DNA of 64,000 nt from Mycobacterium sp. 050128 (GTDB lineage: Bacteria; Actinomycetota; Actinomycetes; Mycobacteriales; Mycobacteriaceae): assembly GCF_036409155.1 (NCBI RefSeq), contig NZ_JAZGLW010000001.1:248001-312000 (forward strand). Direction: 5' to 3'. The notes below the pieces were generated by a model. The model was not told the DNA's origin, did not search any database, and saw nothing but the letters and a program-made list of their open reading frames with translations. Positions 45,792-56,973 of this stretch are shown one piece after another. The position numbers and the translations under genes were made by a program. Position 1 is the first letter of the stretch. Every line of letters starts with the position of its first letter.

Positions 45792-45998
45792 ATGATCACG
45801 AAGATAATAATCGGTGGTGCGATCGTTCTGGGTGCCACGGTTGGACTGGCCGCACCTGCCAACGCGGACGTGGTGTTCAACCAATTTTCCTGTACCTGCG
45901 GGGCACCGCCCCCATTCGCCAGCCCACTGGCCGCGGATCGCATTAACCAGGGTATTCACGACGCCTTGACCCGCGTGCTACCTGGCGATAACGGCTAG
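45792..45998 (+). CDS. Small secreted protein, hypothetical
   Basis: Protein of 68 residues. A clear signal peptide (MITKIIIGGAIVLGATVGLA) with cleavage near APANA-DVV leaves about 43 residues with the two-cysteine motif FNQFSCTCGAPPP. Short mycobacterial proteins of this pattern are common and uncharacterised. The start is secure: GGAGGA lies 8 bases before the ATG, and a TACACT -10 lies about 32 bases further up. The last 4 bases overlap the end of the convergent sulfatase gene. Confidence 0.78.
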   Translation: MITKIIIGGAIVLGATVGLAAPANADVVFNQFSCTCGAPPPFASPLAADRINQGIHDALTRVLPGDNG

Positions 45999-48889
45999 CC
46001 GGCCGCTCCCTGTCCGACAGCTTGGACAGCGGCGTGCTCGTGCAGCGCCTGCTCGGCGTTCACCGGAACCGGCATCAGGTCGAAAACGACCTCTTTGACG
46101 GTTCCGGTGAACGCGTAGGGAGCCCTGTCCTCGTATTCACGGTCGACGACCAACCCGTTGTCGCGGCCGATGTCCATCCCGGCGTACGACGTGAAGGCCA
46201 GGCTCACCGTTTGAGGCAGTTCGCCCTCGCCGATCAACCGATCGTCGGCCCATAGCGTCACGCGTCCGCCCGAACCGACGACGGGCTGGGCGGATTCGAA
46301 CAGCATCCGCACGGTGAGATCGCCGACGGGCAGTGCCTCGGTCGATACCTGCCGATAGGTTTCGACGCCGAGGAACGAATACGTATGGTGCAGCTTGCGT
46401 TCCTCGTCCACCCACAACGCGTACCCGCCCATGAAATCGGCATTGGCGACCAACACACCTTGGGCCCCCGCGTCGGGGATGTGCAGCCGCGCCTCGATCG
46501 CATAGGAGCGCCCGAAGATGCGCGGCACCATGCCGCGCTGAATGTTCTGCACGCCGCCGGAGAAGCTGAATCGGGCGGTGGTGGGTAGCGGGGGCAGATC
46601 ACCGAACATCACCGCCAGCCCGCCGAGAAGCGGCAGCACCCGGTTGTTTTCGGCTTCCTGCCACCAAAGTTGTTGCAGCTCTGCAAGTTTATCGGGATGC
46701 TCGGCGGCCAGGTCGTTGGCCTGAGCGAAGTCGTCGGGCAGGTAGTACAGCTCCCACACGTCGTCGTCGGGGTTGTAATTGCCGGGAGCGAACCGCTGCA
46801 TGGTCTGTGGCGACAGGTCCCAGGGCGCCTTGTCCAGCCGTGCGCACGCCCACCAGCCGTCCTTGTACAGCGCGCGGCTGCCGAAGTTCTCGAAGTACTG
46901 CACGGTGTGACGCTCTTGCGCCGCCGGATCGTCGAAGGTGTGGATGAAGCTGGTTCCGTCCATCGGCTCCTGCTCGAATCCGTCGACACTGCTCGGCTCC
47001 GGTAAACCGATGGCCTCCAACACAGTTGGCGCGATGTCGATGCAGTGCGTGAACTGGTCACGTACTTGCGCGTCGGGCCGGATCCGGCTGGGCCAGGCCA
47101 CCACCATCGGATCGCGGGTGCCGCCCAGGTGGCTGCCCATCTGTTTGCCCCACTGATACGGGGTGTTGTTGGCGTGCGCCCAGGCGCTCGCGAAATGCGG
47201 TGCGGTGTGCTCGTCGCCCAGCGCTTCGATCCCGCCGTATTGCTCGATGAGCTGCAACTGCTGCTCGGCGGTGAGATCCAGGCCGTTGATGAACGTCATC
47301 TCGTTAAACGAACCGGTGTTGGTGCCCTCCATGCTGGCGCCGTTGTCGCCCCAGATGTAGAAGACCAGCGTGTTGTCGGACTCGCCGAGATCGTCGATCG
47401 CGTCCAGCAGGCGACCGACATTCCAGTCAGCGTTTTCCGAGAACCCGGCGAACACCTCCATCTGCCGGGCATAGAGTCTGCGCTGGGTCTCCGACAGGCT
47501 GTCCCACGCCGGAAACAGATCGGGCCGCTCGGTGAGTTCGGCGTCGGGCGGAATGATCCCGAGCTGCTTCTGCCGTTCGAATGTCTTCTGCCGGTAGATA
47601 TCCCAGCCCTCGTCGAACTGGCCCCGATATTTGTCGGCCCACTCGGCGAACACGTGGTGCGGCGCGTGGGTGGCGCCGGTCGCGTAGTACATCATCCACG
47701 GCTTGGTGGCGTTGGCCGCCCGCACGGTGTGCAGCCACTGGACGGCCTTGTCGGTGAGATCGTCGGGGAAGTAGTACGGCTTACCGTCGTGGCCCTGCGG
47801 TATGCCGAGCACGGAATTGTCCTGGCTGATGATCGGGTCGTACTGGCCCGCGGCTCCCGACGGGAATCCCCAGAAGTGGTCGAACCCCCAACCGAGCGGC
47901 CAGTTGTCGAACGGACCCGCCGCGCCCTGCACGTTGTCCGGAGTCAGATGCCACTTGCCGAAAGCGCCTGTGACATAGCCGTTGTCGCGCAGAATCCGGG
48001 GCAGCGCGGCGCAACTGCGCGGCTTGGCCGTCGAGTAACCCGGGTAAGGACCCGGAAACTCGCACACCGATCCGAAGCCGACGCGATGATGGTTGCGACC
48101 GGTCAGCAGCGCCGCGCGGGTCGGAGAGCACACCGCGGTGACGTGAAAGCGGTTGTAGGCCAACCCGTTGCGCGCCAGCCGGGATAGTGTCGGGGTGCGG
48201 ATAGCGCCACCGAAGGTGTCCGGCCCGCCGAAGCCGGCGTCGTCGATCAGCACGATCAGCACGTTCGGCGCTCCCTCGGGTGCGGCGGCGCCGGGCACGA
48301 TCGTCCAGTCCCCCACCGACTCCGCCACGGTGCGGCCCACGGTGCCGCCGAAGCCGCGCTGCGGTATCGGCAGCCGGGTACGGTCCGGGTTGAACTTGCC
48401 CATCGCCTCCTGTAACGCCGCGCCGAAGCCGCGCAATGTCGAGTGAGCGAGCTCCGCGACCGATTTCATCGGCGATCCGGCCAGCGCCTGCTGGACGGCA
48501 AGCCGGGAGTCGGCGGGCGCCAGGACAACGATCACGGCACTGTCGGCCGCCATCTGCTCGCCGATCTTGTCGGACAGCCCGCCCTTGACCTTCTGGTTCA
48601 AGAAGGTGCCCGCCAGGGCGCCGGCCGCGGCGCCGGCTGCCGCCGTGACCACCGACGCCGGCGAGAACAGGCCCGCAGCCAGGCCCGCGCCGGCCCCCCA
48701 CTTGGCGCCGCGACGGCCGAGGCGATTGCCGCTGTCGACGAACACGCGATCGCCCTCGGCGTCCTTGCCGACCAGCACTGCGTCGCGCAGCTGCAGGCTC
48801 TTGTCCTTGGTTAGGGTTTGAAAGTCGTGGCGGGCAGCATCGAGGCCCTGATAGCCGGCAACGATGACCAGCGCGTGTTCTTCACTCAT
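45995..48889 (-). CDS. atsB: AtsB-like sulfatase with N-terminal DUF1269 domain
   Basis: Large arylsulfatase-family protein of 964 residues. Residues 1 to about 160 form a DUF1269-like segment with a Gly/Ala-rich hydrophobic hairpin (WGAGAGLAAGLFSPASVVTA, then [14 protein letters not shown]). The sulfatase domain starts near 195 (NVLIVLIDDAGFGGPD) and has the formylglycine motif CSPTRAALLTGR with Cys254, metal ligands and HLTPD; about 690-950 is a C-terminal beta-rich part. No signal peptide is seen, so it may be anchored by the N-terminal hairpin. The ATG 48889 has TATAAG 6 bases upstream. Homologue by memory is Rv3299c. Confidence 0.9.
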   Translation of the reverse strand: MSEEHALVIVAGYQGLDAARHDFQTLTKDKSLQLRDAVLVGKDAEGDRVFVDSGNRLGRRGAKWGAGAGLAAGLFSPASVVTAAAGAAAGALAGTFLNQKVKGGLSDKIGEQMAADSAVIVVLAPADSRLAVQQALAGSPMKSVAELAHSTLRGFGAALQEAMGKFNPDRTRLPIPQRGFGGTVGRTVAESVGDWTIVPGAAAPEGAPNVLIVLIDDAGFGGPDTFGGAIRTPTLSRLARNGLAYNRFHVTAVCSPTRAALLTGRNHHRVGFGSVCEFPGPYPGYSTAKPRSCAALPRILRDNGYVTGAFGKWHLTPDNVQGAAGPFDNWPLGWGFDHFWGFPSGAAGQYDPIISQDNSVLGIPQGHDGKPYYFPDDLTDKAVQWLHTVRAANATKPWMMYYATGATHAPHHVFAEWADKYRGQFDEGWDIYRQKTFERQKQLGIIPPDAELTERPDLFPAWDSLSETQRRLYARQMEVFAGFSENADWNVGRLLDAIDDLGESDNTLVFYIWGDNGASMEGTNTGSFNEMTFINGLDLTAEQQLQLIEQYGGIEALGDEHTAPHFASAWAHANNTPYQWGKQMGSHLGGTRDPMVVAWPSRIRPDAQVRDQFTHCIDIAPTVLEAIGLPEPSSVDGFEQEPMDGTSFIHTFDDPAAQERHTVQYFENFGSRALYKDGWWACARLDKAPWDLSPQTMQRFAPGNYNPDDDVWELYYLPDDFAQANDLAAEHPDKLAELQQLWWQEAENNRVLPLLGGLAVMFGDLPPLPTTARFSFSGGVQNIQRGMVPRIFGRSYAIEARLHIPDAGAQGVLVANADFMGGYALWVDEERKLHHTYSFLGVETYRQVSTEALPVGDLTVRMLFESAQPVVGSGGRVTLWADDRLIGEGELPQTVSLAFTSYAGMDIGRDNGLVVDREYEDRAPYAFTGTVKEVVFDLMPVPVNAEQALHEHAAVQAVGQGAAG

Positions 48890-48895
48890 AACCAA

Positions 48896-49015: not shown

Positions 49016-49120
49016 CGGTGAAACCTCCCTGAACGCGAGTTGTCGCGCAGGAGAACGGAAAGCGTGAGTGGCTCGATAACGATGTTCGCCTGATTCGCGA
49101 GCCTCTTGCAAGGGACGAAA

Positions 49121-49136
49121 GCCCCCGAAGGGGGGC
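49121..49136. other. GC-rich hairpin in the atsB/P-type ATPase divergent interval
   Basis: GCCCCC-GAAG-GGGGGC is a perfect 6-bp stem with a 4-base loop. Read on the minus strand it is followed by TTTCGT, weakly terminator-like; on the plus strand it lies just upstream of the ATPase promoter. It could be part of the 5' leader of a long atsB transcript. The role is unknown. Confidence 0.4.
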
Positions 49137-49181: not shown

Positions 49182-52100
49182 GTGATCACGCCCCGTGGTT
49201 TACCAGGCTTGGCCCTGGTGGCCGGCCCGTTGCGGGCTACCGTCGGCGGCACGCAAATGGCCCTTAGCGCAGGGGTGGTCGCTGCGGCCGGGGCTACCCA
49301 CACGGCCCTCGCCGGCGCCGGCGTGGCAGCGAGAATAAGCAAGTCGTTAACCCTTGCCGCGCCGGATGTTTCGTCGCTGGCACGCGCGACAGCGGGCGTG
49401 GTGATCGAGGCGCTGGGCGGCGCTGCGGCACGCCGCTCCAGCCGCAGCGGGCCGCGGTGCTGGATCGAGGTGCGTGGTCTCGGCGGCGAACACGCTTGCG
49501 CCATCGCCACCGACGTACTGGCCGCGGTCCGCGCGACGCAAGGCGTTCGCACGGCCTTCCTCAACCGCGCCCTGGCACGGGTCGTGGTCACCCTGGACAC
49601 CGAAGCCGCCGATGCGCCCGCACTGACCGAACTGTGCCGGATCGTCGAGAACGCCGAATCGCGCCACCGAATCGGCGTCGCACGACACCGCCCGGCCTCC
49701 CTGCCGGGCGACGATGCGCTACTGGCAGCACGGATGGTAGCGGTTGCGGCCGCCACTGTGGGCCTTGGTCTTTCACTGACCGGCAGCCTGCTCCGCCTGC
49801 CCAGAATGCCCGACTTGATAGCCGTGGCGCCGACGCTGGCCGATCACCTGCCGCGGGTGCGTCGAGAGGTGGAACAACGCCTCGGTCCGGAGGGAACCGA
49901 TGTGCTGTTCGGTTTGGTCAACGCCGCTACTGCCGCGCTGACGGTGTCGCCGACGGCGGCGGCCGCCGAGGCCGCTACCAACGCTTTGCTGGCGGCGGAG
50001 GCGTGGACCTGTCGGCTGGCGTGGTCCCGGCATGAATCCACGCTGGGCTGCCAACCGATTCCGGACGATGCGGCGTTGGCGCCGCGGGTCCGGCCCCCCT
50101 CGCTCGACGGCCCCGCGGAACGCTACGCCAACCGCATCGGCCTGGCCGGCATCGGTGCCGGCGCCGTGGTCGGCGTGCTGTCACGGAATCTCGACACGGC
50201 CGGTGCCGCCGCGCTGACTACCGTCCCGAAGCCGTTGCGCACCGTGCGTGAGGCGTTCGCCTGTGCGATGAGCAGCGGCCTCAACGTCCACCATGACGCG
50301 CTGGTGCTGCACCCTCGCGTGCTGCGGTCGCTCGATCGGATTGACGCGATCATGATCGACCCGCGAGCGCTCTACACCGACGATCTGATGGTCAGTCGCA
50401 TTCTGGGCGTGGAGAATTCGGTACGTTCCCACGCATGGGAAGCGGTGCGGGCCGCACTCGAAAACGACGGCCTGAGGCCGGGATGGCACGACCTGGCCGA
50501 CATCCCCGGAGCCGGCAGTATCGGCGAGGCGCTCATCAGCCCGGTTCGCGATCCGTTCGCTGCGGCGGTGCTGACCGAAGCGCGGCGGTCGCAGCCGCGG
50601 ATCTTCTCGCTCGATGACGACGGGTTGCGTTCTCTGGCAAGGGGATTCGACCAACTGTATCCCACCGACGGCACGATCGACCACGCGGTGGCAGCGGCGG
50701 TGGCCGAACTGAAGGCCGGCGGCGCCACCGTCGCGTTGCTGACTACCGCGGAGATGCGGGCCGCGCACCGGTCCGACATCACGATCGGCGTGCTCCGCGA
50801 CCGACGGCCTCCGCCCTGGGGTGCCGACGTGATCGTGGACGACCTGACCGGCGTCTGGCGGGTGCTGCACGCACTGCCCGCCGCCCGCTCCGCCACCGAG
50901 GGTGCGGTCCGGCTGTCCGCCTCGGCTTCGGCGCTCGGCGCCCTGATGTTGATTCCCGGTGTGCCCGGCCGCAGTTCGACATCGGTCAACATCGGCATGG
51001 CCACCAGCCTGTGGATCGGATACCGGGCGGCCGCCAAGGCGTTTCGCGATCCGCTGCCCGAACCGGAGACCAGCCACGAATGGCACGCGCTGCCCGTGAC
51101 GGAGGTGCAGCGGCTGTTGCCCCGCCCGACCGACCAACGCGCGATCGAAGCACCGACGTGGTGGTCGCAGCGGCCGGCGGTTCGTGCGCTGCACGATGCC
51201 ACCGCGCCGTCGTGGGGCCTGCTCCGTGATTTCGTCGGCGAGATGCGCGGCGACCTGTCGGACCCGATCACTCCGCTGCTGGCCACCGGTGCGCTGGCCA
51301 GCGCGCTGCTCGGCTCCCCGTTGGATGCGGTCCTGGTGGGTAGTGTCCTGTTGTCCAACGCAGCGTTGTCGGCCGAGCAGCAGCTGTATGCCGAACGCAC
51401 GCTGGATCGCCTGCTGGCGGTGCAGGATCCGCCCGCACGCCGACATGTCGGGCCGGTGGAGGAGCAGCGCCACGAGAACGTTGCTACCAGGCGGCTGCGG
51501 CTCGGCGACGTCATCGAAGTCCGTGCCGACGAGGTGGTCCCCGCGGACGCCCGGCTGCTGCACGCGATCAATGTCGAAGTCGACGAATCCACCCTGACCG
51601 GCGAATCACTGCCGGTGGCCAAGCAGACCGAGCCCACACCGGGCGCCCCGCTCGCCGAGCGCACCTGCATGATCTATGCCGGCACCACGATTGTCGCGGG
51701 CACGGCGGTGGCCGTGGTAACCGCGGCGAGCTCACGCTCGGAGATGCGCCGAGCGTTGGCAATGGCCCCGCGGAAGTTGCAAGAGGTCGGCCTGCAGCGG
51801 CAGTTGCGCCACATCACCGGCCGAGCGTTGCCGTTCAGCCTGGCCAGCGGCGGGCTGGTGGGCCTGATCAGCCTCATGCGCGGAACACTGTTGCGCGACG
51901 CGGTGTCCAGTGCGGTTACCTTGGTCGTTGCGGCCATTCCGGAGGGGCTGCCGTTGGTAGCCACACTGGCGCAACTGTCCGCGGCCCGCCGGCTCAGCGG
52001 CCGATCGGTCCTGATCCGCAATCCGCACTCGATCGAAGCGCTGGCCCGGTTGAACGTGGTCTGCTTCGACAAGACCGGAACGCTCAGCGAGAACCGGCTG

Positions 52101-53660
52101 AAGGTCAAATCAGTGCACCCGATGGCCGGTTACACCCCGGCGCAGGTCCTCGACGCGGCGGTGAGCACCAGCTACGCCAGGCACACCCACCGCGTCGACC
52201 ACGCCACCGACGACGCCATCACCCAAGCCGCCGACGACCCGGATCTGCGAGGTGACGGGTTGCCACCACAACCGCGGCGCAGCCGTGACGCGTTCCTGCC
52301 GTTCCAGTCATCCGGCCGGCCGTTCGCCGCCGCGCTGGTGGGCACTCGACTGACCGTCAAGGGCTCACCCGAGGCGCTCTCGGCGGCGTTACGGCACGAC
52401 GACCAGCCGTTGGCACGGCAGGTCGACGAGATGGCGGCCAATGGTCTTCGGGTGCTGGCGGTTGCCGAGCGCGACCTCACCCCGCACCAGGCAGCGGCCG
52501 CCGCGGCCAACCCCGGCTATCTGGAAAGCGTGTGCACGTCCGACCTCATCCCGGTCGGTCTGATCGGCTTGGCAGACACTCCGCGGCCGACGGCCCGCGC
52601 GCTGTTGCAGAGCCTTTCCGAGCGCGATATCGCGGTCCGGCTGATCACCGGCGATCATCCCTGCACCGCGATGGCGATCGCCCAAGAGCTGGGCATCGAT
52701 GTGAACGCCGATCAGGTGATCACCGGCAGCGACTGGGAAGCACTGTCCGCCGACCAGCGGGCCGAGACCGTCACATCCTGTGTGGTGTTCGCACGGATGA
52801 CGCCGGAGGACAAGATCGACGTGGTCCAGACCCTCGAGCGGGCGGGCCTCGTCACGGCGATGGTCGGCGACGGTGTCAACGACGCCGCCGCGATCCGGGC
52901 GGCGAGCGTGGGCATCGGGGTGGCGGCGCGCGGCAGCGATGCGGCGCGCAGCGCGGCCGACGTGGTGCTGCTCGACGAACGGATCGAGGCGCTGCTCGAT
53001 GCGCTCGACGAAGGCCGGCAGTTGTGGCAGCGGGTGCACTCCGCGGTGTCGATGTTGTTGGGCGGCAACCTCGGCGAAGCGTGCTTCGCAACGATTACCG
53101 CCCTGTTGACCGGGCGGTCGGTGCTCAACGCCCGGCAAATGCTGCTGGTCAACATGCTGACGGACGCTCTTCCGGCCGCCGCGCTGGCCGTCAGCCCGCA
53201 ATCGGGCCCGGCCGACGAGGACCGCGACGAGGCCGCGATGTGGCGTGCGATCGGGATTCGTGGTGCCGCCACCACGATCGGCGCCACGCTGGCCTGGACG
53301 ATGGCCAGCGTGACCGGCATGCCGCAGCGCGCCGCGACCGTCGGGCTGATCGCGCTGGTCAGCACGCAACTTGCCCAGACTCTGATCGACTCCCACGCAC
53401 CGATGGTGGTGTTGACGTCGGTCGGTTCGCTCGCAGTCCTGGCGGTGGTGGTCAGCACTCCGGGACTCAGCCAGCTGTTCGGCTGCACCCCGGTAGACCC
53501 GTTGGCCTGGGGTCAGGCCTTGCTCGGGGCCGCGGTGGCCAGTGCACTGCCTGCTATCGCTCCCGGCCCGCTGCGGCGGGCTTCTGACGTAATCCAACGA
53601 CAAATCTCGGGCGACGAGTTGGCCCGACCAACCCAAGGAGTCGAAAGTGGTTGCCGGTAA
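49182..53660 (+). CDS. Long P-type ATPase of the CtpH/CtpI type
   Basis: Cation-transporting membrane ATPase of 1492 residues. The first ~600 residues are a mycobacterial extension, including a ferredoxin-like heavy-metal-type segment near 85-150 (CWIEVRGLGGEHACAIATDV) and a long region with HAD-like pieces. The pump core follows: ESTLTGESLPVAK, the TM4 motif VAAIPEGLPLVA, the phosphorylation site CFDKTGTLSEN with Asp963, RLITGDHP and MVGDGVNDAAAIR, then C-terminal helices. All catalytic motifs are intact. The ion is unknown. It starts leaderless at GTG 49182 and overlaps the next gene by 14 bases. It is absent here in H37Rv as I recall; CtpH and CtpI are encoded elsewhere there. Confidence 0.92.
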   Translation: MITPRGLPGLALVAGPLRATVGGTQMALSAGVVAAAGATHTALAGAGVAARISKSLTLAAPDVSSLARATAGVVIEALGGAAARRSSRSGPRCWIEVRGLGGEHACAIATDVLAAVRATQGVRTAFLNRALARVVVTLDTEAADAPALTELCRIVENAESRHRIGVARHRPASLPGDDALLAARMVAVAAATVGLGLSLTGSLLRLPRMPDLIAVAPTLADHLPRVRREVEQRLGPEGTDVLFGLVNAATAALTVSPTAAAAEAATNALLAAEAWTCRLAWSRHESTLGCQPIPDDAALAPRVRPPSLDGPAERYANRIGLAGIGAGAVVGVLSRNLDTAGAAALTTVPKPLRTVREAFACAMSSGLNVHHDALVLHPRVLRSLDRIDAIMIDPRALYTDDLMVSRILGVENSVRSHAWEAVRAALENDGLRPGWHDLADIPGAGSIGEALISPVRDPFAAAVLTEARRSQPRIFSLDDDGLRSLARGFDQLYPTDGTIDHAVAAAVAELKAGGATVALLTTAEMRAAHRSDITIGVLRDRRPPPWGADVIVDDLTGVWRVLHALPAARSATEGAVRLSASASALGALMLIPGVPGRSSTSVNIGMATSLWIGYRAAAKAFRDPLPEPETSHEWHALPVTEVQRLLPRPTDQRAIEAPTWWSQRPAVRALHDATAPSWGLLRDFVGEMRGDLSDPITPLLATGALASALLGSPLDAVLVGSVLLSNAALSAEQQLYAERTLDRLLAVQDPPARRHVGPVEEQRHENVATRRLRLGDVIEVRADEVVPADARLLHAINVEVDESTLTGESLPVAKQTEPTPGAPLAERTCMIYAGTTIVAGTAVAVVTAASSRSEMRRALAMAPRKLQEVGLQRQLRHITGRALPFSLASGGLVGLISLMRGTLLRDAVSSAVTLVVAAIPEGLPLVATLAQLSAARRLSGRSVLIRNPHSIEALARLNVVCFDKTGTLSENRLKVKSVHPMAGYTPAQVLDAAVSTSYARHTHRVDHATDDAITQAADDPDLRGDGLPPQPRRSRDAFLPFQSSGRPFAAALVGTRLTVKGSPEALSAALRHDDQPLARQVDEMAANGLRVLAVAERDLTPHQAAAAAANPGYLESVCTSDLIPVGLIGLADTPRPTARALLQSLSERDIAVRLITGDHPCTAMAIAQELGIDVNADQVITGSDWEALSADQRAETVTSCVVFARMTPEDKIDVVQTLERAGLVTAMVGDGVNDAAAIRAASVGIGVAARGSDAARSAADVVLLDERIEALLDALDEGRQLWQRVHSAVSMLLGGNLGEACFATITALLTGRSVLNARQMLLVNMLTDALPAAALAVSPQSGPADEDRDEAAMWRAIGIRGAATTIGATLAWTMASVTGMPQRAATVGLIALVSTQLAQTLIDSHAPMVVLTSVGSLAVLAVVVSTPGLSQLFGCTPVDPLAWGQALLGAAVASALPAIAPGPLRRASDVIQRQISGDELARPTQGVESGCR

Positions 53661-54267
53661 CCGTAATTCACGATTGCAGCTCAAGCCTTACCGAGCCTTG
53701 TCGGAGCATCTCGACGGAGCTTGGTGGCCGCGGTCGCAGAATTTGGTCGACGAGTTGCCCGACTTGGTGACGTCGGTGTCCGACCGACTGGGACAGGTCG
53801 TGATGGTGGGTTACCGCCGTAACGGTTGGGACGAAACGCCGCCCCTGGCCGAGATCGCCGGGCACACAATCGAATTGCTGGGCTTCACCAGTAACGAGCC
53901 GACCAGTGTCATCCTGATCGGCGAAGACGGCCGTCACCTCACATTGCACGTTATCCGCCCGGACGCCGACGAAGAGGTTGCTCGAGAAGCGTTGGCGGAG
54001 ACGCAAGTACCCGCCGACGCCGCACCGGCCAGTCTTTCAACGGTTGCGCGATCCGTAGCCGAGGTCGCAGACAAGCTGGCCCGTCACGAGGGGATTGATG
54101 ACGATCGGCGCACGGCCCAGATCAAGGACTGGTGTGAGGAGGCCGCGAAACAATTCGTCACTGCGCCGGTCCAGACCTTTGTTCCGATCCTCGTCGAACA
54201 CATCGTGCGTAACCGCATCATCGAGTCCCGCCGCAAGACCTCGTCAGCCGCCTCGGCGAGCGGCTGA
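53647..54267 (+). CDS. DUF5994 protein with C-terminal three-helix-bundle domain
   Basis: Cytosolic protein of 206 residues lying between two P-type ATPases. Residues about 8-120 match the DUF5994 pattern (LKPYRALSEHLDGAWWPRSQ, then ELPDLVTSV and YRRNGWDETPP). Residues about 130-195 resemble the three-helix bundle dimerisation domain of mycobacterial proteins (RRTAQIKDWCEEAAKQF, then PVQTFVPILVEHIVRNRI). The GTG has AAGGAG 7 bases upstream and overlaps the first ATPase by 14 bases; the second ATPase starts 6 bases after its stop. It may link or regulate the two pumps, which is inference from the operon only. Confidence 0.8.
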   Translation: MVAGNRNSRLQLKPYRALSEHLDGAWWPRSQNLVDELPDLVTSVSDRLGQVVMVGYRRNGWDETPPLAEIAGHTIELLGFTSNEPTSVILIGEDGRHLTLHVIRPDADEEVAREALAETQVPADAAPASLSTVARSVAEVADKLARHEGIDDDRRTAQIKDWCEEAAKQFVTAPVQTFVPILVEHIVRNRIIESRRKTSSAASASG

Positions 54268-54273
54268 TGACCA

Positions 54274-56973
54274 GTGTTTGCCCTGGTCGAGCCTGATCCC
54301 GCGCTGCTGGATCCGGCGGTCGTCGTCCAACGGCTCCAAACGGATTCCGAAGTTGGCCTGACCGCGCGCGAGGCCGCTCACCGACTCGTCGCGGTGGGAC
54401 CGAACGACATCGCGCGTGTCCCGCCGCTGGCGAGGTGGAAAAAGATCATCAGCCAGTTCCGCAGTCCGCTGATTTACCTGCTACTGGCCGCACTCCTTGC
54501 CTCCCTTGCGGTCTGGGCCGTCGAGGGGGCCGCCGAATGGCCGGTCGATGCGTTGGTGATCGGCGTCATTCTGGTGCTCAACGCCGCCCTGGGTTACGGA
54601 CAGGAGGCCCACGCCGAGCACGCGGTCGATGCCTTGGCGCGGATGACGGCAACCACCGCGACCGTCGTTCGCGACGGGATCGAATGCAGGGTTGCCGCAA
54701 GCGAAGTGGTGCCCGGTGACGTGCTGCTGTTGACGGAGGGCGACGCCGTGGCCGCCGATGCCAGGCTGCTGTCGGCGGACGGGCTGGAGGTGCTGGAGAG
54801 CGCGTTGACCGGGGAAAGTGAGCCGGCCCGTAAAGATCCGCGGACCCTGGCCGAGCCGACGGCGCTGGGCGAAAAAGCCGGCATGGTGTTCAAGGGCACG
54901 GCGGTCGCCAAGGGTGCCGGGCGGGGGGTGGTGACCGCTACGGGGATGGCCACCCAGACGGGTCAGATTGCCGGCCTGGTGCGCGCCGTCGACGACAACG
55001 CGACGCCCTTGCAGCGTGAGATCGACCGCGCCAGCCGCGTTCTCGGGACCGCGGTGTTGGTGCTCGGCGTCGTGGTGATCGCGAGCATTTTTGTCGTCTT
55101 CGGCGTCCACAGCGCCCATGATGTGGTCACCGCGGTGCTGCTCGGCGTCTCGCTGGCGGTGGCCGCCGTGCCGGAGGGGCTGCCCGCCATCATGTCGGTC
55201 GTGCTTGCGCTGGGAACGCGGCGGATGGCCGACGAAAACGCCGTCGTCAAACAACTCTCGTCGGCGGAGACGCTGGGATCTGCCTCGGTGGTCTGCTCTG
55301 GCAAGACCGGCACCCTCACGACCGGGGAGATGACGGTCGTGCGCGTCCTCACCCCGATCGGGGAGGTGAGCGTCACGGGTGCGGGATACCGGCCGGAAGG
55401 CAGGTTCGAGCACGACGGGATCCCGCTTCGGGAAGGCGAGAACCTTTGGCGCCAAACCGCACTGGTGCTCGGCGACGACGCTGCGGGCGTAACTGCCTCG
55501 CTGCGAGAACAGGACGGTCAGTGGATTGCCGAGGGTGATCCCATCGAGGCGGCCTTCCTGGTTGCGCAGACGAAGCTCGGCACCCGGCCGGCGACACACC
55601 GCACCTCGACGGGCGTGATCAAGGGTGAGCCCGGTGCCGTGCTGGACCGCTGCACGCATTTGCGGATCGGCGAGCGACTGGTACCGCTCGACGACTCGAC
55701 GAAGGCGACCATCCGTTGCGGTGCCGAGCGGCTCACCCGCGACGCGCTGCACGCGGTCGCGGTGGCCTATCCGGTAGCAGCTGACCAGCCCGGCCAGCCA
55801 CTGGCGTATGTCGGGATGGTCGGCATTACCGATCCCCCTCGGCCGGGAGCCGCGACGGCCATCGCCGACGCCCACCGAGCCGGGGTCCGGGTCGTGATGA
55901 TCACGGGCGACCAACCCCGAGCGGCGGCGCGAATCGCGCGCGAACTCGGAATCGAAGACAACGAGTCGGCGGTATCCGGCGCCGAGATCGCCGTCCAGGA
56001 CGATGATCAGCTCCGGCAAACGGTGCGCCGGCACTCGCAATACACGCAGCTGGGTCCCGCCGACAAATTGCGCATCATCGGCGCCCTGCAGGCCGACCAC
56101 GAGATCGTGGCCGTGACCGGCGAGGGGACCAACGATGCACCGGCCCTGAAATCGGCAGACATCGGGATCGCCATGGGCCGCACCGGCACTGAAGTCGCCA
56201 GAGAAGCGGCGAACATGATTCTCGCCGACGACAACTTCGCGACGATCGTGCGGGCCATCCGCGAGGGCCGCGGCATCTTCTCCAACATCAAGAAGTCCCT
56301 GCGCTACCTGTTGTCCTCCAACATGGGGGAAGTCCTGACCGTGTTTTTCGGGGTGGTGCTCGCCGGCGCGATCGGCCTGTCGCAGGCGCACACCGTGGCG
56401 CTACCGCTGCTGGCCACCCAGATTCTGTGGATCAACCTGCTCACCGACGGCGCTCCGGCCCTGGCCTTGGGCGCGGACCCGCAAACCGAGGACTTGATGA
56501 GCCGGCCGCCCCGGGCGGCGTCCGATCGGGTCATCGACGGGCGGATGTGGAACAACATCGTCGTGATCGGCGCGGCGGTCGCGGCCGCGACACTGCTGAC
56601 GATCCACCTCTATGTCCCGGGCGGTCCAATGCCGTCGTCGGTGGACACGGCCCGCACCGCCGGCTTCACCGTGCTGGTGCTCAGCCAGCTGTTCAACACC
56701 CTCAATGCCCGCTCGGAGACGCAAACCGTGTTCCGTGGCCTGTTCGCCAACGGCTGGCTGTGGGCGGCGATTGCCTTCTCGGCCTTACTACAGGTGGCTG
56801 TGGTGCAGCTGCCGCTGCTGAATACGGCCTTCACCACCGAGCCGCTGTCCCCGGGCCAGTGGCTGGTGTGCGTAGCCATGTCCAGCACGGTGCTGTGGGT
56901 CAGCGAGATCCGCAAGGTCATCCTGCGTCGTCGTGACCGCCGCCGGAGCCGATCTCAATTGTCCGGCGGCTGA
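54274..56973 (+). CDS. CtpF-like P-type ATPase lacking the catalytic aspartate
   Basis: SERCA-like (P2-type) membrane protein of 899 residues close in length to CtpF. Present: an N-terminal cation-ATPase domain, ALTGESEPARK, AAVPEGLPAIM in TM4, VMITGDQPRAAARI, and the membrane ion-site segments LSSNMGEVLTVFF and LWINLLTDGAPALALG. Altered: the phosphorylation motif DKTGT is GKTGT (Gly343 in CSGKTGTLT, codon GGC at 55300-55302) and the hinge motif TGDGVND is TGEGTND (Glu617, Asp621). Loss of the phospho-acceptor should abolish pumping. The reading frame is otherwise full length, so this may be a pseudo-enzyme kept for ion sensing or as a partner of the intact pump. It overlaps the convergent gene by 56 bases. 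Confidence 0.9.
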   Translation: MFALVEPDPALLDPAVVVQRLQTDSEVGLTAREAAHRLVAVGPNDIARVPPLARWKKIISQFRSPLIYLLLAALLASLAVWAVEGAAEWPVDALVIGVILVLNAALGYGQEAHAEHAVDALARMTATTATVVRDGIECRVAASEVVPGDVLLLTEGDAVAADARLLSADGLEVLESALTGESEPARKDPRTLAEPTALGEKAGMVFKGTAVAKGAGRGVVTATGMATQTGQIAGLVRAVDDNATPLQREIDRASRVLGTAVLVLGVVVIASIFVVFGVHSAHDVVTAVLLGVSLAVAAVPEGLPAIMSVVLALGTRRMADENAVVKQLSSAETLGSASVVCSGKTGTLTTGEMTVVRVLTPIGEVSVTGAGYRPEGRFEHDGIPLREGENLWRQTALVLGDDAAGVTASLREQDGQWIAEGDPIEAAFLVAQTKLGTRPATHRTSTGVIKGEPGAVLDRCTHLRIGERLVPLDDSTKATIRCGAERLTRDALHAVAVAYPVAADQPGQPLAYVGMVGITDPPRPGAATAIADAHRAGVRVVMITGDQPRAAARIARELGIEDNESAVSGAEIAVQDDDQLRQTVRRHSQYTQLGPADKLRIIGALQADHEIVAVTGEGTNDAPALKSADIGIAMGRTGTEVAREAANMILADDNFATIVRAIREGRGIFSNIKKSLRYLLSSNMGEVLTVFFGVVLAGAIGLSQAHTVALPLLATQILWINLLTDGAPALALGADPQTEDLMSRPPRAASDRVIDGRMWNNIVVIGAAVAAATLLTIHLYVPGGPMPSSVDTARTAGFTVLVLSQLFNTLNARSETQTVFRGLFANGWLWAAIAFSALLQVAVVQLPLLNTAFTTEPLSPGQWLVCVAMSSTVLWVSEIRKVILRRRDRRRSRSQLSGG

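Follow-up and report, generated by a model that had tools for sequence, protein, structure and literature searches.

A conserved mycobacterial pseudo-P-type ATPase without the phosphorylated aspartate, encoded next to a CtpI/CtpH-type pump

Introduction

Many kinases and proteases have well-known pseudoenzyme relatives. To our knowledge, no P-type ATPase clade with conserved loss of the acceptor aspartate itself has been described, and no dead bacterial P-type ATPase was found in an open-access library, judging from titles, beginnings of abstracts and text passages. Here we analyze a gene of Mycobacterium sp. 050128, located at 54274-56973 on the forward strand of a 64,000-nucleotide stretch of contig NZ_JAZGLW010000001.1 (the window, whose positions serve as coordinates throughout). 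The gene encodes an 899-residue relative of the P2A Ca2+-ATPases, termed below the pseudo-pump, in which the phosphorylated Asp is replaced by Gly.

The closest described families are the P2A Ca2+-ATPases, namely SERCA, SPCA and LMCA1 of Listeria, from which the pseudo-pump differs in having no acceptor Asp, a Glu at the hinge motif, and no nucleotide-binding stretch in the nucleotide-binding (N) domain. The nearest idea is represented by human TMEM94/ERMA, which likewise combines a P-type architecture with degenerate catalytic motifs, and whose ATPase activity is disputed (PMC12134183; passages of PMC13322241). Unlike the pseudo-pump, TMEM94 is a eukaryotic protein without TGES, in which the Asp is retained (DKQGI) and GSSANL stands in place of GDGVND, whereas in the pseudo-pump the Asp itself is changed to Gly and most other residues of the phosphorylation (P) site are kept. 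The apicomplexan guanylate cyclase PfGCbeta carries a degenerate P4-ATPase domain, most signature residues of which are not identifiable according to passages of PMC6592433; it differs in being cyclase-fused, of the flippase type, and eukaryotic. The same passages discuss whether the ATPase domain regulates the cyclase in this family, and they cite a study of GCbeta in which the cyclase domain was active on its own, with the ATPase domain absent.

Two groups of mycobacterial pumps are relevant. CtpF (Rv1997) of M. tuberculosis, likewise a P2A pump, is set beside the pseudo-pump by description and not by sequence; it is described as involved in calcium transport in PMC9180918 and is included in the DosR table of PMC4082495. 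CtpH and CtpI, with a large N-terminal part and with homologs named ATPase I, represent the class of the 1492-residue neighbor of the pseudo-pump, and thus of its proposed live partner and not of the dead form. Passages of PMC10654040 and PMC3573892 describe them as uncharacterized members of the class of functionally uncharacterized P-type ATPases (FUPA) 24, and the latter source states that a counterpart of non-catalytic beta subunits is absent from the proteomes of the M. tuberculosis complex.

Lost and retained motifs

The frame of the pseudo-pump is uninterrupted from its GTG start to its TGA stop and belongs over its whole length to the SERCA/SPCA/LMCA1-type family and fold. Its best sequence matches in PDB are LMCA1 (6zhf, E 3.2e-136), SERCA and SPCA, and the presence of the E1-E2_ATPase, HAD hydrolase and Cation_ATPase_C domains places it in the P-type superfamily by fold and homology. 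The general P-type model TIGR01494 gives 267.1 bits, above the cut-off of 62.3. The scores against two curated Ca2+-ATPase equivalog models are below the cut-offs (TIGR01522, 587.7 vs 798.3 bits; TIGR01116, 577.7 vs 703.4 bits); these scores are for the window protein only, and alone they do not split dead from live forms. A structure model built from diverse alignment rows has a complete P-type fold (predicted local distance difference test, pLDDT, 86.8; predicted template modeling score, pTM, 0.84), with SPCA1 and SERCA2 as the nearest structures; an earlier model from 84 close rows was poor (pLDDT 66).

In the homolog search, 7,999 candidates were scored and 7,937 matched, and the best 120 listed were aligned with the window protein (row P0001). 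The alignment comprises 62 pseudo rows (the window protein and relatives sharing 70% identity or more with it), 4 intermediates, and 55 rows that have Asp at position 343 and are referred to as active. All positions below are taken from this family alignment, to which we apply the SERCA residue names (FTSERK stretch, R560-like Arg) on the assumption that they correspond.

Comparison of these groups revealed the following losses: (i) codon 343 (GGC, 55300-55302), aligned with the DKTGT Asp of LMCA1, encodes Gly, giving GKTGT, and Gly occupies this position in all 62 pseudo rows; (ii) at codon 617 (GAG, 56122-56124), the first Asp of the hinge motif GDGVND is replaced by Glu, giving TGEGTND, with Glu in 62/62 pseudo rows and Asp in 55/55 active rows; and (iii) the region of the FTSERK stretch in the N domain (approximately residues 436-449, 55579-55620) is lost. 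The first two substitutions had been called in the initial annotation of the gene, and both proved to be properties of the clade, in which the hinge reads GEG followed by I/T/V, N/S and D. The complete split between pseudo and active rows at positions 343 and 617 far exceeds what chance would give. The third loss had escaped notice. In the FTSERK stretch, the Phe is found in none of the pseudo rows, the Glu in 3 and the Arg in 1, with an alignment gap in 53-54 of them, vs 55, 54 and 55 of the active rows, respectively. The N-domain segment of the window protein is about 29 residues shorter than that of row P0077, and a few pseudo rows (e.g., P0016 and P0054) have a full-length segment with other residues there. 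The R560-like Arg is replaced by His in 58 of the 62 pseudo rows, a change that had likewise gone unnoticed. In all 55 active rows, this Arg is retained, as are Asp617, the Glu of TGES, and the FTSERK Phe and Arg.

Other parts of the protein are invariant. Lys344, Thr345, Thr347, Thr544, Gly545, Asp546, Lys598 and Asp621 are each present in 62/62 pseudo rows. The same is true for the six cation-site residues that characterize P2A Ca2+-ATPases: Glu301 in PEGLP of the transmembrane segment M4 (55171-55185; also Glu in 55/55 active rows), Asn683 and Glu686 in NMGE of M5 (56320-56331), and Asn721, Thr724 and Asp725 in NLLTD of M6 (56434-56448). As stated in the initial annotation, TGES, PEGLP, MITGD and the M5/M6 ion-site motifs remain in the window protein; for TGES of the actuator (A) domain (54808-54819), the statement does not extend to the clade, as Glu181 is replaced in 52 of the 62 rows (by Leu in 28, Arg in 14, Gln in 8, Ala in 1 and His in 1). 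Six different residues occur at position 181, against Gly without exception at position 343; from this we infer that Gly343 itself is probably under selection.

Codon 343 is GGC in all 17 genome loci of the dead form and GGT in L119, a Gly locus of the sister group described below. Because separate assemblies agree on this residue, a base-call error is very improbable, and the alternative of a single-strain mutation, which the initial annotation had proposed to assess on orthologues at residues 343 and 617, is refuted, since close orthologues carry Gly and Glu and not DKTGT. At the other P-type loci of the 6.73-Mb genome that contains the window, DKTGT is present in 19/19 cases, some of which are two pieces of one gene (20 of 30 matched places were fetched). 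No copy of the clade was observed among plasmids: 213 plasmid records matched, all with less than 60% identity (15 of them listed, motifs unread), and a plasmid copy was set aside.

Thus, the acceptor Asp, the GDGVND hinge and the nucleotide-site residues of the N domain, which define a catalytic P-type ATPase, are all missing from the pseudo-pump. Under the established P-type mechanism, these losses leave no Post-Albers cycle; both SERCA and Na,K-ATPase become inactive when the acceptor Asp is substituted (D351N and D369N, respectively), according to a passage of PMC13322241. It is near certain, judging from the sequences, that the pseudo-pump has lost the phosphoenzyme cycle.

Origin of the glycine form

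In a quick tree of 57 chosen rows, 28 of the 29 Gly rows grouped together (Shimodaira-Hasegawa-like approximate likelihood ratio test, 95), with P0076, P0083, P0067 and L119 as a sister group to the 24 full pseudo rows. The remaining Gly row, P0061, fell among the Asp rows, so that two changes are needed; two changes were again obtained in the free quick tree after removal of columns 343 and 617. With these columns removed, a tree uniting all 29 Gly rows was 18.9 log-units higher and was not rejected (approximately unbiased test, p-AU 0.816). Several independent losses of the Asp are therefore disfavoured, and a single origin of the Gly form is favoured, though not proven.

The four listed intermediates all have Gly343. 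The Arg of the N-domain stretch is kept in all four, and the Phe position is occupied by Phe in one and Trp in three; the hinge Asp and the TGES Glu are kept in two of four each. Since Gly coexists with the stretch Arg in these proteins, the loss of the acceptor Asp preceded that of the N-domain stretch, and loss of the TGES Glu continues inside the clade. A gene with Gly (GGT) at the acceptor site and the hinge Asp kept is located in genome G384 (locus L164, 10521-13310), divergent to a similar pump; this genome also holds a DKTGT relative (L161/L143).

Selective constraint

The ratio of nonsynonymous to synonymous substitution rates (dN/dS) was estimated by the simple counting method of Nei and Gojobori (NG86) on 17 cassettes of high G+C content, with non-independent pairs and with a frameshifted copy (L147) entered by its open piece. 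This comparison had been suggested in the initial annotation, and the median for the pseudo-pump, 0.226 (136 pairs, range 0.16-0.31), indicates purifying selection. The medians for the adjoining pump and for the DUF5994 gene between the two are 0.243 (120 pairs, without L154) and 0.263 (134 pairs with dS under 1), respectively. By domain, the pseudo-pump values are 0.090 for P1, 0.167 for M5-M10, 0.169 for P2, 0.171 for M1-M4, 0.276 for A and 0.371 for N, and 1.46 for the C-terminal tail (21 usable pairs).

An active mycobacterial clade, which is more distant (about 50% identity), gave 0.258 overall (14 loci, 90 pairs), and at matched dS its values were 0.25 and 0.29 vs 0.23 and 0.22 for the dead clade. 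The dead clade overall is no less constrained than the active one, and the membrane and P segments of the active clade are less constrained than those of the dead clade. Neither relaxed selection nor a broken frame, the marks of a pseudogene, was observed for the window gene; one relative, L147, is frameshifted. The view of the initial annotation, in which the pseudo-pump is maintained rather than decaying, is thus borne out by the invariant Gly343 and Glu617 (62/62), a dN/dS of about 0.23, and a gene cassette preserved in 17/17 loci. We hold with high confidence, on comparative grounds, that the gene encodes a conserved pseudo-P-type ATPase, dead and maintained.

The gene cassette and the neighboring pump

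The pseudo-pump is preceded on the same strand by two genes. The first (49182-53660) encodes a large intact P-type ATPase of 1492 residues, CtpI/CtpH-like, several homologs of which are named cation-transporting ATPase I; its phosphorylation Asp is residue 963 (GAC, 52068-52070), and DKTGT and GDG(V/A)ND are kept in 119/119 listed homologs over 1250 residues (the best 120 of 356 homolog clusters being listed). The second (53647-54267) encodes a DUF5994 three-helix-bundle protein of 206 residues, matched in 17/17 cassettes. The DUF5994 gene overlaps the pump end by 14 bases and the pseudo-pump begins 6 bases past the DUF5994 end, so the three genes look like one operon.

Among the 297 genomes of the genus searched, 18 matched the pseudo-pump at E up to 1e-200, comprising 17 with the dead form and one, G185, with Asp. 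The order pump, DUF5994, pseudo-pump was found together in all 17 dead-form loci, with a few irregularities: the pump is cut by a contig end in L154 and is in two pieces in L157 and L147, and the DUF5994 gene is split in L155. The flank RluA-GlpD-LpdA is common to the window and L144-L147 and was unmatched in the fetched stretches of the other 12 dead-form loci. As indirect evidence, the length of the longest contig is exactly the same for 21 of 61 pseudo clusters and one of the 120 listed pump clusters, vs none of 55 active clusters and none of 3 intermediates. In G185 (Asp) and G384 (the Gly intermediate), the relative is divergent beside a 67-69%-identical pump, with no DUF5994 match there; thus, the association with the pump may predate the full decay. 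A search with the N-terminal half of the pump matched 159 of the 297 genomes at E up to 1e-60, and the pump class therefore extends far beyond the dead form.

The N-terminal half of the pump (49182-51251) has no Pfam match. It is colinear with the M4-P region in the C-terminal half of the same protein at an hhalign score of 35.5 with a probability of only 11% (best of 20 block-shuffled controls, 27.3; reversed control, 17.7), and the pump may thus combine a degenerate P-type half with a live one. Kinship of this half with the pseudo-pump was also considered, and only a weak signal was obtained (hhalign probability 1.7%).

Several further features were observed around the cassettes. A third P-type ATPase-like match is located near the cassette in L146, L148-L153 and L155-L159, all of which except L146 are without the RluA-GlpD flank. 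A large gene, arylsulfatase-like by reading of its sequence, lies divergent upstream in the window (45995-48895) and is also present in L144, L145, L147 and some of the loci that have the pump only. In L147, the pump, pseudo-pump, arylsulfatase-like and RluA-like genes are in shifted pieces, and the GlpD, LpdA and GGCT-like genes are each in one piece; this cassette appears to be decaying along with some of its neighbors.

A DosR-like box upstream of the operon

A DosR-like box, AGGGACGAAAGCCCC, is located at 49111-49125 on the forward strand, 56 bases before the pump start, and is treated here as a lead only. It fits GGGACNNNNGNCCC but lacks the TT of the stringent DosR consensus GGGACTTNNGNCCCT, as quoted in PMC6448022. 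Upstream of the pump, 6 of 16 dead-form loci have the strict core GGGRCNNNNGNCCC, vs 0 of 15 other loci, which have the pump alone or belong to other kin. Cores agreeing with GGGACNNNNGNCCC at 8 or 9 of 9 positions were found in the 300 bases before the first matched residue of the pump in 14 of 16 dead-form loci (the exceptions being L148 and L159, with L154 outside the 16 loci covered) vs 1 of these 15 others (L176). In L148, L159, L164, L173, L174 and L178, the pump match starts late and the scanned stretch is partly coding.

In the window genome, AGGGACNNNNGNCCC occurs at 24 sites vs 12 for the reversed control, and 20 frames beside 18 of the 24 sites were scanned. Four of the 18 neighborhoods are DosR-target-like, with (i) pfkB, (ii) a baeRF2 protein, which we take to be Rv2629-like, (iii) a nitroreductase, and (iv) an M50-CBS protein whose gene diverges from that of a P2 pump; the remaining scanned neighborhoods contain unrelated families or none. 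The DosR table in PMC4082495 includes pfkB, ctpF, Rv2625c and Rv2629. The operon is perhaps under DosR-type hypoxia control.

The P2 pump at the fourth of these sites (L002/L193, G000:C3:553608-555653) has DKTGT and a DosR-like box, and a CBS-domain M50 peptidase is encoded divergently beside it. This pump is possibly the true CtpF of the window species, and may be nearer to CtpF than the pseudo-pump is.

Possible roles of the pseudo-pump

The roles raised in the initial annotation, an ion sensor or a partner of the pump at 49182-53660, both fit the retained cation site and the synteny. Since the live pump is always in its company, a partner or regulator role is our best guess, drawn from synteny and conservation only. 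In this reading, a P2A pump line of the SERCA/SPCA/LMCA1-like type lost its phosphoenzyme chemistry, probably once, after which selection kept the dead pump. The dead pump would bind a divalent cation, probably Ca2+, without moving it by ATP; the pump, the DUF5994 protein and the pseudo-pump would be made from one operon, perhaps expressed under DosR-type hypoxia control; and whether the dead pump is ion-bound or ion-free would set the activity or the membrane placement of the live one. Taken as a whole, the statement that the gene encodes a conserved pseudo-P-type ATPase acting as a cation-binding, non-cycling partner or regulator of the neighboring CtpI/CtpH-type pump is one toward which we lean slightly. 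The more specific version, a heteromeric P-type ATPase with a dead cation-sensing subunit and a live pump from one operon, is put forward tentatively, as somewhat doubtful.

Several observations weigh against the partner role. Ten of the 62 rows, including the window protein, have not lost the Glu of TGES, and the A and N domains of the dead clade are slightly less constrained (0.276 and 0.371) than those of the active clade (0.264 and 0.361). The 19-kb stretch with the Asp relative of G037 (L165) contains no such pump, so that active kin do not share the link in general. The pump is present without the pseudo-pump in 13/13 fetched stretches (L166-L178) of genomes chosen for having the pump and lacking a pseudo-pump match, 7 of which have a DUF5994 match; hence, the pump does not always need the pseudo-pump. 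The adjacency of the two genes may reflect co-regulation only.

A pseudo-pump that acts autonomously in the membrane, as a cation sensor, a buffer or a passive conduit, without pump contact and with the operon serving only co-expression, would agree with the cation-site residues kept in 62/62 rows while the ATP site is gone, and with the 13 chosen loci that have the pump alone. However, the dead form is never found away from the pump in 17 loci, and no attached signaling domain was matched in the 899 residues, which makes this explanation rather unlikely. We regard as improbable a structural scaffold that needs the P-type fold only, for instance one that anchors the pump or DUF5994 protein within a membrane platform, with the cation site serving fold stability: the P1 segment and the membrane core are tightly constrained (dN/dS 0.09 and 0.17), and pump-organizing platforms in M. 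tuberculosis are the subject of PMC13043812, but six cation-site residues in 62/62 rows seem more than the fold would need.

Continued pumping with another phosphate acceptor or energy source could account for the retention of KTGT, TGD, Lys598 and the second hinge Asp621 in 62/62 rows. It is very unlikely given the loss of the acceptor Asp, the hinge Asp, the N-domain stretch and, in most rows, the dephosphorylation Glu; moreover, even the very divergent motif of ERMA/TMEM94 keeps its Asp, substitution of which abolished uptake according to a passage of PMC13322241. The explanation given the least weight, with hardly any credence, is a decaying pseudogene or a sequencing error. Frameshifts in the pseudo-pump and the adjoining pump of L147, the split DUF5994 gene of L155 and one TGA inside the G038 match would fit it, but GGC in 17/17 loci, Gly in 62/62 rows and a dN/dS of 0.23 speak against it.

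The preferred reading thus remains that of a dead, cation-binding partner of the CtpI/CtpH-type pump. If it is true, genes annotated as ordinary cation-translocating P-type ATPases in many mycobacteria cannot pump. The clade and its intermediates would form a natural series, in which the Asp is gone before the N-domain stretch, and which asks what the P-type fold does without ATP. The dead form may also supply a partner for the uncharacterized CtpI/CtpH class.

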